Shown: piece by piece, positions 2 to 5,474 of the stretch | How the letters are laid out: each line of letters starts with the position of its first letter | Position numbering within the stretch: position 1 is the stretch's first letter | Assembly: GCA_019347585.1 (NCBI GenBank) | Contig: JAHWLC010000020.1 | Coordinates: 1 to 10,244 of the forward strand | Direction: 5' to 3' | DNA length: 10,244 bases | DNA from: Actinomycetota bacterium | GTDB lineage: Bacteria > Actinomycetota > Acidimicrobiia > Spongiisociales > ZC4RG35 | Translations under genes and position numbers: made by a program | The notes under the pieces: generated by a model | What the model saw: the letters and a program-made list of their open reading frames with translations, nothing else | What the model was told of the DNA's origin: nothing | The model's database searches: none

Positions 2-346
2 TTCCGTTTCGAGGGCCAGGTGTCGGTGTTCGCTCCATATGAGGGGCCGTGTTATCGCTGTCTATACCGTCAGCCGCCCTCCCCCGAGCTCGCACCGACC
101 TGTGCCGAGGCCGGAGTGATCGGGGTGGTGCCAGGAGTGATCGGCTCGATCCAGGCGATGGAGGCGGTCAAGATCCTGCTCGGAATCGGCGACACCCTGG
201 CGGGGAGACTCCTCGTCTATGACGCCCTGGACCAGGATTTCACCACGGTGTCGGTCCGCCGTGACCCCGATTGCCCGGCATGCGCCGAGCCGGGGCGGCC
301 GCCGGCGCTGGTCGACTATGACGAGACCTGTCTTCCACCTGTCTGA
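2..346 (+). CDS. ThiF/MoeB/MoeZ-family adenylyltransferase, C-terminal part (5' end outside window)
   Basis: This is the last 114 residues of an E1-like enzyme that adenylates the C-terminal glycine of a small ubiquitin-fold sulfur carrier (MoaD, ThiS or CysO type). The reading frame is open from base 2, so the gene starts before the window. What is visible: a first zinc CxxC (PCYRC, about residues 16-20), the family signature CAEAGVIGVVPGVIGSIQA followed by MEAVKILLG, and the second zinc CxxC (CPAC, about residues 91-94). The protein ends about 20 residues after this second zinc pair. The C-terminal rhodanese domain found in MoeZ-type members is therefore absent, and sulfur would have to come from another protein. 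The stop lies inside the downstream JAMM peptidase gene (29-base overlap), which implies co-translation and joint function. The choice between MoeB, ThiF and MoeZ cannot be settled without the N-terminal half. Confidence 0.88.
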   Translation, partial: FRFEGQVSVFAPYEGPCYRCLYRQPPSPELAPTCAEAGVIGVVPGVIGSIQAMEAVKILLGIGDTLAGRLLVYDALDQDFTTVSVRRDPDCPACAEPGRPPALVDYDETCLPPV

Positions 347-716
347 GGATCTCGCCGACCGGATCATCGCCCATTGCCTCGCCGCGCTGCCCAACGAGGG
401 CTGCGGCCTGTTCGCGGTAGACGAGGACCGGGTGGTCGCGGTCTATCCGACGTCGAATCAATCACCGTCCCCGGTGTCCTACACCGTGCCCCCGGAGGAG
501 CATTTCGCCGCGTTGGAGGACGCCGAGTCACGGGGGTGGAGATTGGGAGGCGTGTTTCACTCCCATCCTTACGGCTCGGCGGAGTTGTCGATGGTCGATC
601 TCCAGGCCGCCATCGAGCCGGAGTGGGCCTATCTGGTCGTCGGCATGCGGGGCGAGCCCGAGATACGCGCCTGGCGAGCTCGGGACGGCGAGGTCGAGGA
701 AGTGGAGATCGCATAG
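318..716 (+). CDS. JAMM/MPN+ metallopeptidase, Mec-like (CysO-cysteine hydrolase type)
   Basis: This 132-aa single-domain zinc metallopeptidase has a complete JAMM signature: an upstream Glu (E27 in NEGCG) and H-S-H-P-x6-S-x2-D (H81, H83, S91, D94). The family cleaves after a C-terminal Gly-Gly of ubiquitin-like proteins. Small actinobacterial members such as mycobacterial Mec release cysteine from the CysO-cysteine adduct. The adjacent overlapping ThiF/MoeB gene fits that pathway: the E1-like enzyme activates the carrier and the peptidase hydrolyses the product. No carrier protein or CysM-type synthase is in the window, so they may lie upstream or elsewhere. The ATG at 318 is the first start that gives a normal JAMM N-terminus. 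The open frame runs further upstream, but only as a shadow inside the ThiF gene. No clear ribosome binding site is seen, consistent with translational coupling. The family call is firm; the exact substrate is inferred. Confidence 0.9.
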   Translation: MTRPVFHLSEDLADRIIAHCLAALPNEGCGLFAVDEDRVVAVYPTSNQSPSPVSYTVPPEEHFAALEDAESRGWRLGGVFHSHPYGSAELSMVDLQAAIEPEWAYLVVGMRGEPEIRAWRARDGEVEEVEIA

Positions 717-727
717 AGGCTCGGTTC

Positions 728-750
728 CTGTCACACCCACCTCGTAGCTT
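728..750 (+). promoter_or_regulatory. Upstream copy of a PafBC/RecA-NDp-like DNA-damage promoter
   Basis: The element reads cTGTCAcac, then 8 bases, then TAGCTT. This fits the mycobacterial RecA-independent damage promoter as I remember it (tTGTCRgtg-N8-TAnnnT), in which TGTCR replaces a normal -35 and TAnnnT is the -10. The copy matches the TGTCA core and the spacing but not the trailing gtg. It shares CTGTCAC-N7-TCGTA exactly with the copy 52 bases downstream, which makes chance less likely. The predicted start of transcription is about 755-758, upstream of the small ORF at 825. Confidence 0.4.
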
Positions 751-766
751 GCTGGTTAGCGGGCGT

Positions 767-785
767 TGACAGGAGTTTTCTGTCA
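767..785. repeat. Inverted repeat TGACAG-N7-CTGTCA, possible operator
   Basis: The arms TGACAG (767-772) and CTGTCA (780-785) are perfect reverse complements around a 7-base spacer. There is no T-run after it, so it does not look like a terminator. The right arm is the TGTCA core of the proximal damage-type promoter, so a dimeric DNA-binding protein sitting here would overlap the promoter. The third CTGTCA at 728-733 has the same orientation as the right arm. Confidence 0.4.
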
Positions 786-802
786 CTGACGGGTCGTACC
801 GT
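780..802 (+). promoter_or_regulatory. Proximal PafBC/RecA-NDp-like DNA-damage promoter
   Basis: The element reads cTGTCActg, then 8 bases (789-796), then TACCGT (797-802). It matches the remembered consensus tTGTCRgtg-N8-TAnnnT in the TGTCA core, in the tg of the last triplet, in spacing and in the -10 pattern. Predicted initiation is near 807-812, giving a leader of about 15 bases before the ATG at 825, just long enough for the AGGGGG ribosome binding site. The context supports the call: it drives a DUF222/HNH gene, and 13E12-family genes in mycobacteria are, as I recall, among the DNA-damage-induced genes with such promoters. Its TGTCA is also the right arm of an inverted repeat (767-785). 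Confidence 0.55.
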
Positions 803-824
803 TGGTGTGATGAGAGGGGGAAGC

Positions 825-1049
825 ATGTCACGACAGAGACGTCGGGCCATCATGAGGAGGCTCGAGAAGATCCAGGCACGCGACGTCGGGTCCCAATCCA
901 CCGACCAGTTGGTGGGTGACCTGATCACGATGGACAGGCTGCGGAACGAATGGCGGACGCTCACGATCGAGATGTTGGAGCAGCAGCCCTTCTTGTCGCC
1001 TGCACTTGCCAGGCTTTACCGGCACTACAAAGGAATCGGTCGACCGTGA
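825..1049 (+). CDS. Small basic hypothetical protein coupled to HNH endonuclease gene
   Basis: This 74-aa protein belongs to no family I recognise. The N-terminus is strongly basic (MSRQRRRAIMRRLEKIQARD), followed by a mixed, probably helical middle and a basic, aromatic end (ARLYRHYKGIGRP). It has no signal peptide, membrane segment or cysteine motif. ATG 825 is preferred over GTG 807 or ATG 810 because a GA-rich ribosome binding site (AGGGGG, about 815-820) sits at proper distance before it. Its TGA overlaps the GTG of the DUF222/HNH gene (GTGA at 1046-1049), so the two are almost certainly translated together. A basic protein of this size could bind DNA or modulate the nuclease, but that is inference from position and charge only. 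It lies directly behind two damage-promoter-like elements. Confidence 0.6.
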   Translation: MSRQRRRAIMRRLEKIQARDVGSQSTDQLVGDLITMDRLRNEWRTLTIEMLEQQPFLSPALARLYRHYKGIGRP

Positions 1050-2173
1050 GCGCCTTGCGATCAGCGATCGATGAATTGGCCTCGGTGCCCGACGAGGAGT
1101 TGAGCGACGAGGAGCTGGACGCGAACCTCGGCGAGGTCGCTCATGCCCGGGATCGGCTTGATGTCTTGCAGACTCGGTGGATGAGACTGCAGTCAGAGCG
1201 GCGCGGGCATGACAGGCTGGGTTATTCCTCTCCGACCGCCTACTTGAAGGATCGGGGGCGGATGTCGGCCGGTCACGCCAGACGCATCGTTTCCATGGCC
1301 AATGTCATGGTGAAGGCTTCGGTGGTGACCCGGGCCTGGTCGGATGGCCGCATCTCCACCGACCAGGCCGGTCTGCTCCTCTCGCTGGTCGAGGTGGTTC
1401 CCGAAGAGTTCGCCGCCGCCGAGGAAGCTCTGGTGGAGATCGTCGAGCCGTTGAGCGTCTCCGACACGGGACGGGCCCTGGAGTATTGGCGTCAGTCGGT
1501 GGACGGTCCCGGGGAGCTCTCCGAGGAGACCCAGCTTGCCCGTCGCGGCGTCTCGCTGTCGAAGACGATGGGAGGGATGCGTCGGGTCGACGGGTGGATG
1601 ACCGCGACAGCCGGTCATGCCCTCGAAACGGCCCTCGAAACGCTGATGCCGCCGCCCGGAGAAGACGAGGAGCGGTCGCCAGGGCAGCGTCGTCACGATG
1701 CCCTGGAAGACCTGGCTCGCTCCCATCTCGACCATGGCGACACGCCGACCGTCGGTGGGGAGAAGTCACACATCATGGTGCTCGCCGATCCCGACGCACT
1801 GAAAGGCATCGCCGGAGGCACCCACGAGAGCCTCGACGGGGAGGTTTTCGACGTGGAGACCATCCGACGTCTCGCCTGTGACTCGTCGGTCTCCCGGATC
1901 GTCTTCGGCCCCCAATCGGAGATCCTCGACGTGGGACGCAAGACCAGAGTGTGGAGCCCGGCGCAGCGCCGGGCCATCATCGCCCGGGACCGCCACTGCG
2001 TCGAACCCGGCTGTGACCGCCCGCCCGACTGGTGTGACATCCACCACAAGACCCATTGGGCCGACGGCGGCGACACTTCGGTGGACAGCGGCGAGCTCCG
2101 CTGCCGCTACCACCACACCAAAGAACACAGCCGACAGGCACGCGCCCACCTCAGGGAACGACGACGAACCTAG
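1046..2173 (+). CDS. DUF222 / HNH endonuclease domain protein (13E12 repeat family)
   Basis: This 375-aa protein has the DUF222 (13E12) architecture: an N-terminal helical region (about 20-250, with the typical SAGHARRIVSMA and RAWSDGRISTDQAGLLL segments), then a C-terminal HNH nuclease (about 305-365). The zinc and catalytic residues appear as CVEPGC (318-323), WCDIHH (His 333-334), HWADGG and CRYHH (353-357). At the central HNH Asn position the protein has Ser (about 348, in TSVDSGELRC). The open frame extends upstream to 950, but the GTG at 1046, overlapping the TGA of the preceding ORF as GTGA, is the best start. Family members occur in many copies in actinobacterial genomes and are linked to DNA-damage induction and phage attachment; their biological role is not settled. 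A GC-rich hairpin follows the stop. Confidence 0.9.
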   Translation: MSALRSAIDELASVPDEELSDEELDANLGEVAHARDRLDVLQTRWMRLQSERRGHDRLGYSSPTAYLKDRGRMSAGHARRIVSMANVMVKASVVTRAWSDGRISTDQAGLLLSLVEVVPEEFAAAEEALVEIVEPLSVSDTGRALEYWRQSVDGPGELSEETQLARRGVSLSKTMGGMRRVDGWMTATAGHALETALETLMPPPGEDEERSPGQRRHDALEDLARSHLDHGDTPTVGGEKSHIMVLADPDALKGIAGGTHESLDGEVFDVETIRRLACDSSVSRIVFGPQSEILDVGRKTRVWSPAQRRAIIARDRHCVEPGCDRPPDWCDIHHKTHWADGGDTSVDSGELRCRYHHTKEHSRQARAHLRERRRT

Positions 2174-5061: not shown

Positions 5062-5474
5062 ATCCAGGCGACCCTCATCGCGGTTGACAGAGATGATGAG
5101 AACCAAAGGCCTACCCGTTCTCGATCATGGCCGAGAGGGGCGTGGTCAACGACGAGATCGGGTCTCAGCCGGTGGCTGTCTTCTGGGGAGCAGCCGACAC
5201 AACCGACGCCCTCGACGCCGGAGAGATCTCCGAGGCGGCCGCGGTCGGCACCGGAATCGCCTACGACCCGGTGGTCGACGACCGGCGCCTCACCTTCGAG
5301 AAGTCGGGCGAAGACATGTTCTCCGACATCGAAACCGGCTCCACCTGGACCATCCTGGGCAACGCTACGGGCGGTGCGCTTGAAGGCGCCCAGTTGGAGC
5401 CCCTCCCCCATCGCAACGACTTCTGGTTCGCCTGGCAAGCCTTCGTCCCCGAGGCCGAGGTGTACGAGGGCTGA
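5062..5474 (+). pseudogene. DUF3179 protein, N-terminally truncated and frameshifted remnant
   Basis: The frame from 5100 to 5474 encodes the C-terminal portion of a DUF3179 protein: EPKAYPFSIM, VVNDEIGSQPVAVFW, LTFEKSGEDMFSDIETGSTW, GGALEGAQLEPL and FWFAWQAFVPEA. The only start in this frame is ATG 5127, which has no ribosome binding site and would cut off the conserved AYP segment. An in-frame TGA at 5097-5099 precedes EPKAYP. In the next frame, about 5062-5099 reads IQATLIAVDRDDE, which fits the residues expected just before EPKAYP, so a one-base frameshift around 5094-5100 is likely. Upstream, the thioesterase gene occupies the space where the rest should be. The CPLCGS motif of classical members is replaced by GAADTTDAL, as in a variant subgroup. 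A short expressed 115-aa protein from 5127 cannot be excluded. Confidence 0.65.

Follow-up and report, generated by a model that had tools for sequence, protein, structure and literature searches.

What do two near-identical motifs do in the 93 nt between the stop codon of a JAB/JAMM-like gene and the ATG at 810, where a small ORF followed by a DUF222-HNH gene begins? The window, the whole 10,244-nt stretch analysed here, is contig 122 of an actinobacterial metagenome-assembled genome of 1,399,202 bases in 265 contigs, 75.6% complete. A sequence-only reading of this DNA took the two motifs for tandem promoters of the DNA-damage type activated by PafBC, for which the mycobacterial RecA-NDp/PafBC consensus is tTGTCRgtg, 8 nt, TannnT (accessible part of PMC5656591).

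Sequence, score and setting of the two sites

The copies read CTGTCACACCCACCTCGTAGCTT at 728-750 and CTGTCACTGACGGGTCGTACCGT at 780-802. They had been described as CTGTCAC-N7-TCGTA at 728-746 and 780-798, each continuing into a TAnnnT hexamer at an equal distance, and this description is exact: the 12 fixed bases have two exact matches in the window, and both hexamers (Table 1) stand at the same offset from TGTCA. With up to two mismatches, the 12 fixed bases match three times against 0.49 expected, a count of at least three being reached in 4 of 200 shuffles, and the third-best match differs at two positions. At an offset of 52 bp and with unlike N7 spacers, the pair does not have the look of a recent duplication. 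The earlier wording, strongly damage-responsive and phased, goes further than the sequence does: among the loci compared, tandem strict sites recur at one distinct locus (L033, the same as L152), with a spacing of 56 bp.

Agreement with the mycobacterial consensus is partial. The TGTCR core, present as TGTCA in both copies, and the TAnnnT hexamer 11 nt past it (gtg plus 8 nt) stand; the weakly conserved letters, t before and gtg after the core, are absent from both copies, where C precedes and CAC replaces GTG. The letter following TGTCR is C in 70% of 94 sites from relatives, and the core in the host's order is mostly TGTCACA(C/G)(C/G). Letters past TGTC vary by lineage, being mostly GG-G in one genome (G128) and mostly ACA(C/G) in the host's order. 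Within the recognition helix of PafB, AF-x-R(M/T)FERDK, one residue that may set specificity reads by eye as H or R in four relatives and as S in G128, and the helix of another genome (G161) reads SFN.

A weight matrix was built from the 94 sites, which come from seven other genomes of the order, the own genome being left out; its fixed letters are set by construction, so that the extra information sits in the free columns. The scanned set comprised the window and 12 stretches of the own genome (11 whole contigs and 5,000 of the 14,073 bases of contig C254), picked for motif matches or pafBC content. Over 179,028 positions, the distal copy, P1, scored 25.07 bits and the proximal copy, P2, 21.84 bits (ranks in Table 1), and neither score was attained at any position of 100 simulated windows. 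Searches of 600-2300 found no sigma-70-type promoter, a weak negative given 0.3 expected by chance, and no terminator (0.5 expected). A TTGACA at 766-771, between P1 and P2, is probably a chance occurrence, no -10 being found at 16-18 nt.

Table 1. Features in and around the intergenic region of the window
Feature	Position	Strand	Basis
JAB/JAMM-like gene (Prok-JAB), upstream neighbour	318..716	+	Pfam PF14464, 6.2e-18
Putative promoter P1: PafBC-type element TGTCACACC 729-737, -10 TAGCTT 745-750	729..750	+	Matrix rank 1
Putative promoter P2: PafBC-type element TGTCACTGA 781-789, -10 TACCGT 797-802	781..802	+	Matrix rank 5
Small ORF	810..1049	+	79 codons from leaderless ATG 810, 74 from in-frame ATG 825
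GTGA overlap: DUF222 GTG start on small-ORF TGA stop	1046..1049	+	Sequence
DUF222 (13E12-type) protein, C-terminal HNH-like region	1046..2173	+	PF02720, 4.4e-34

The two sites differ in what follows them. ATG 810 starts 7 nt past the P2 hexamer, and with a start expected at about 809-810, P2 predicts a leaderless mRNA beginning at that codon. For P1 the predicted start lies at about 757-758, and a leadered transcript is predicted because a start codon 6-8 nt past the hexamer is missing. The second candidate start of the small ORF, ATG 825, has the purine-rich GAGAGGGGGA ahead of it at 812-821. The small ORF matches no Pfam family, and a search of the 59 other genomes gave nothing; its sole homologue in the protein database, P0001 (73 aa, 68% identity over 96%), has its N-terminus aligned to the residue of ATG 825, and on this homologue the ORF looks coding-like. 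Translational coupling between the small ORF and the DUF222 gene is what we infer at the GTGA overlap.

The DUF222 protein has an N-terminus that is MSALRS-like in its nearest relatives. In its HNH-like region, compared over nine aligned sequences, the His columns are invariant and the central Asn column is Asn in six; at this column (residue 348 of the window protein) the window has Ser, as does L033, and L031 has Lys. Presumably these columns form the H-N-H catalytic triad, and the nuclease activity of the window protein may be altered. The JAB gene also occurs near DUF222 in L031/L150, L036 and L156 (61-65% identity; three distinct loci).

PafC and the leaderless form of the motif

As regards the regulator, whose two genes the sequence-only reading wanted confirmed, the genome contains a complete pafC and the end of pafB. 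They form a WYL-domain gene pair in a contig with the order pafB-pafC-tatA-tatC-helY, which we take to be common to mycobacteria; pafB is visible only from inside its WYL domain because the contig stops there. PafC matches HTH_PafC (PF19187) at 1.1e-28 and, in sequence, the solved PafBC chain 6sj9 at 1e-33. Each of the 60 genomes in the relatives search has an HTH_PafC match, which is above the cut-off in 57 and at 1e-10 or better in 56; four have weak matches only.

Genome-wide counts used the bare motif TGTCR-N11-TAnnnT, the reversed pattern as a control, and a leaderless criterion that was suggested by reading the sites, namely a start codon 6-8 nt past the hexamer. The own genome holds 15 bare matches against 5 in the control, and 12 against none once the start codon is included. 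Over 60 genomes (the own and 59 relatives), the bare motif is in mild excess (2181 against 1801), whereas a start codon follows 839 matches against 144 in the control, with counts above control in all 60. Matches lacking a start codon are rarer than control, and for this reason the real sites of the lineage look mostly leaderless. This geometry makes PafBC regulons findable from sequence alone, the enrichment being 5.8-fold over control as against 1.2-fold for the bare motif in the same 60 genomes.

The leaderless pattern favours P2 and counts against P1, which has no such start codon. P2 alone might then be the working PafBC promoter, and P1 might have decayed, have arisen by chance or give little transcript; the single other tandem locus points the same way. 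Yet P1 has the top score of all scanned positions, and the motif has been kept in P1 and P2 while their spacers diverged, which leaves a solitary working P2 a serious though rather unlikely reading.

A different activator that recognises this motif could also act at the sites, or they could work without an activator: the P1 motif is spoken of as ClgR-recognised in M. smegmatis in the accessible part of PMC5656591. A further 148 genomes of the phylum, from a search restricted to 90% completeness, were used to weigh this. The 78 with PafC at E<=1e-20 contain 1156 leaderless-motif matches against 154 in the control (7.5-fold), and the other 70, in which PafC is weak or not found, 322 against 245 (1.3-fold). 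The motif excess differs between the groups with a Mann-Whitney p of 1.6e-16, a value overstated because the genomes are mutually related, and exceptions run both ways (an excess of 2 or less in 14 of the 78, of at least 5 in 9 of the 70). Since motif excess tracks the presence of PafC, use by ClgR or another activator, or by none, is improbable.

DUF222 genes and LexA-type boxes

Actinomycetota have many DUF222/13E12 proteins, to which, as far as we know, no function has been assigned. Conservation in relatives, proposed earlier as a check on the promoters, is found upstream of their DUF222 genes. Of 53 DUF222 matches in six genomes, 38 have the motif and its start codon within 350 nt, compared with 0.09 expected from site density. 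A second set consists of named DUF222 loci, the best 80 of 584 relatives, 71 of them with enough upstream sequence; several come from one genome or genus, so the set is not a random sample. (For relatives, a contig scan with a single protein query gave no match, and an alignment query gave matches.) The strict motif lies upstream in 40 of these 71 loci and is missing in 31; it occurs in none of the 71 on the reverse strand or inside the gene. Motif-bearing loci include Acidimicrobiia, Blastococcus, Geodermatophilus and Micromonospora; the leaderless form stands at a DUF222 gene of Micromonospora lupini Lupac 08 (L227) and of Micromonospora alfalfae MED01 (L214).

A start codon follows 5-8 nt on in 31 of the 40. 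For 25 of the 31, this leaderless start is in frame with DUF222; in the remaining six and in the window it opens a separate ORF. Among these seven, the TGA of the separate ORF overlaps the DUF222 start by one base (RTGA) in five, with ORFs of 79 codons in the window, 5 in L150 and L152, 7 in L164 and 8 in L188; the overlap is not present in L185 and L209.

Five HNH genes of M. tuberculosis, which we assume to be 13E12 genes, bear on the suggested membership of 13E12 genes in the PafBC regulon. RecA dependence is reported for these five putative HNH endonucleases in the accessible part of PMC8151990, so 13E12 would not simply be a PafBC family.

In the own genome lexA has three perfect GAAC-N4-GTTC boxes directly upstream, which makes this sequence the likely LexA operator. 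At the second DUF222 gene of the own genome and at the ortholog L031, a perfect box covers the -10 hexamer, L031 having one PafBC-type site and a box rather than two sites. The operon might accordingly be a LexA/SOS gene, or be under dual LexA/PafBC control like several of its DUF222 relatives. The window promoter, however, has no LexA-type box: a box with at most one mismatch occurs in the window only at 5310, and the best match within 701-1100 is 6/8, so that LexA control of this operon is highly improbable. Chance likeness in GC-rich intergenic DNA can be set aside as extremely improbable, for although the bare TGTCR-N11-TAnnnT is frequent in relatives and barely above control, neither site's score arose in simulation, and location and conservation ahead of DUF222 genes speak against it.

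Together, the matrix ranks, the presence of pafC and part of pafB, the conservation at DUF222 genes and the co-occurrence of motif and PafC make it probable that 728-802 comprises two tandem PafBC (RecA-NDp)-type promoters driving the small-ORF/DUF222-HNH operon.

Fusion of a LexA-type box into a PafBC-type promoter was seen in L023 (own contig C101, 380-401, minus strand), L031, L119-L123 and L236-L268. The box sits over the -10 hexamer or the start codon; in the second case its letters form the opening codons of the protein (ATGTTCGA, M-F-D). A collection of 122 distinct leaderless sites, in which DUF222 loci are heavily represented, contains 17 with a perfect box nearby; by reading, 16 of these precede DUF222 and one a RadA-like gene (a crude automatic HNH flag marked 7). 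At 17 further DUF222 upstream regions in G075, the box is perfect in all 17, and the strict motif is present in 13, where the box covers the start codon. G128 has the motif in 11 of 16 DUF222 upstream regions, and 10 of these 11 have a box of at least 7/8 over the -10 or start codon, two of them perfect; among 20 other motif sites of its 42, a box of at least 7/8 falls in the same range in 4, with one perfect and one at the start codon. A damage-type promoter that is common across the DUF222 family, often with a fused LexA-type box, ties the family to the DNA damage response, and this tie becomes testable in cultured strains.

Two further DUF222 settings were noted. One locus (L032 in G012; 56% identical) has, by eye, no PafBC-type site upstream of DUF222; it has TTGACA-N18-TACAAT, a housekeeping-type promoter, with the start codon 7 nt past TACAAT and a LexA-type box over that codon. 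G075 (2.46 Mb in one contig) has 20 dispersed DUF222 matches, 16 of them with near-alike leaderless promoters (e.g., L119-L123), and its DUF222 set looks like an expanded or mobile family. In viral contigs, DUF222 gave just one 31-residue edge match.

A proposed route of expression, its precedents and other targets

PafBC is described as working by sigma adaptation and being activated by single-stranded DNA (accessible part of PMC11804915). If the mycobacterial mechanism applies here, damage would produce single-stranded DNA, and PafBC bound to it would join sigma-A RNA polymerase, PafB reading the TGTCAC element around -26 instead of a -35, with transcription beginning about 7 nt past TAnnnT. 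From P2 this would give the leaderless mRNA, on which translation would pass through the small ORF and start anew at the overlapping GTG 1046, yielding the DUF222-HNH protein; from P1 would come a second, leadered mRNA, translated from ATG 825 (or 810).

Both kinds of transcript have counterparts in M. tuberculosis, in the accessible part of PMC2897130. The RecA-NDp gene Rv1955 has a mapped start about 49 nt ahead of its start codon; it is thus not leaderless, unlike P2, and offers a precedent for a leadered transcript of the P1 kind. M. tuberculosis lexA is described there as leaderless, the start codon being the transcript start as predicted for P2. The window differs from that case on two counts: it is in this geometry that PafBC-type sites of its lineage exceed the control, and the leaderless reading frame is a short cistron with a stop codon overlapping the gene behind it.

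It is tempting, though tentative, to join these elements into one broader picture. The PafBC regulon of the order would be built on leaderless mRNAs, with DUF222-HNH genes as a leading, in some genomes the largest, class of targets, frequently combined within the same 45 bp with a LexA operator that covers the -10 or the start codon. The window gene would have dropped LexA control and carry two PafBC promoters giving leadered and leaderless mRNAs of one operon, on which the leaderless small cistron would load ribosomes for the HNH protein through the stop/start overlap. This may be the state of affairs, but the odds lie somewhat against the combination as a whole.

The kind of promoter is known; what sets this one apart is the leadered/leaderless pair in tandem, the form taken by the motif in the lineage and the link to DUF222. 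With the mycobacterial RecA-NDp/PafBC promoter it shares the TGTCR core, the exact spacing, TAnnnT and no -35 found, as well as pafBC genes in the genome and repair-type targets. It differs in the missing gtg, the order's core TGTCACA(C/G)(C/G), the two copies, and the proximal copy that sets a start codon at the predicted transcript start. Like the M. tuberculosis HNH genes (accessible part of PMC8151990) it has an HNH-type protein behind a damage-linked promoter, and it differs from them in having PafBC-type sites and no LexA-type box. The earlier suggestion that the locus extends the motif beyond mycobacteria is not new, RecA-NDp outside them being already in print (PMC8223512, accessible part). 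Among the matches listed, mostly open-access literature, none describes PafBC promoters at DUF222 genes or a leaderless PafBC regulon, and nothing was found in the literature searched on the 13E12 repeat together with mitomycin.

Other targets of the motif include repair-type genes. For the 12 sites of the own genome, nine downstream proteins were scanned against Pfam and six had matches: two SbcD-type phosphoesterases, a PD-(D/E)XK nuclease, thymidylate kinase (tmk), the second DUF222 protein and a DJC28-domain protein. Three had no Pfam match, two of them reading by eye as HerA-like and ComF-like. The site in contig C84 precedes a short ORF only, a GyrB-like frame lying 79 nt further on. In G037, 24 of 27 sites were read by eye: seven precede proteins that read as DUF222, others apparent UvrB, a RecB-like nuclease and a ComM-like protein, and five open ORFs of fewer than 40 codons and may be chance. 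On the minus strand of L022, a locus in the own genome, a 45-codon leaderless ORF stands behind a PafBC-type site and has a TTGA overlap with a helicase-like ORF, whose frame runs down from plus-strand position 465.
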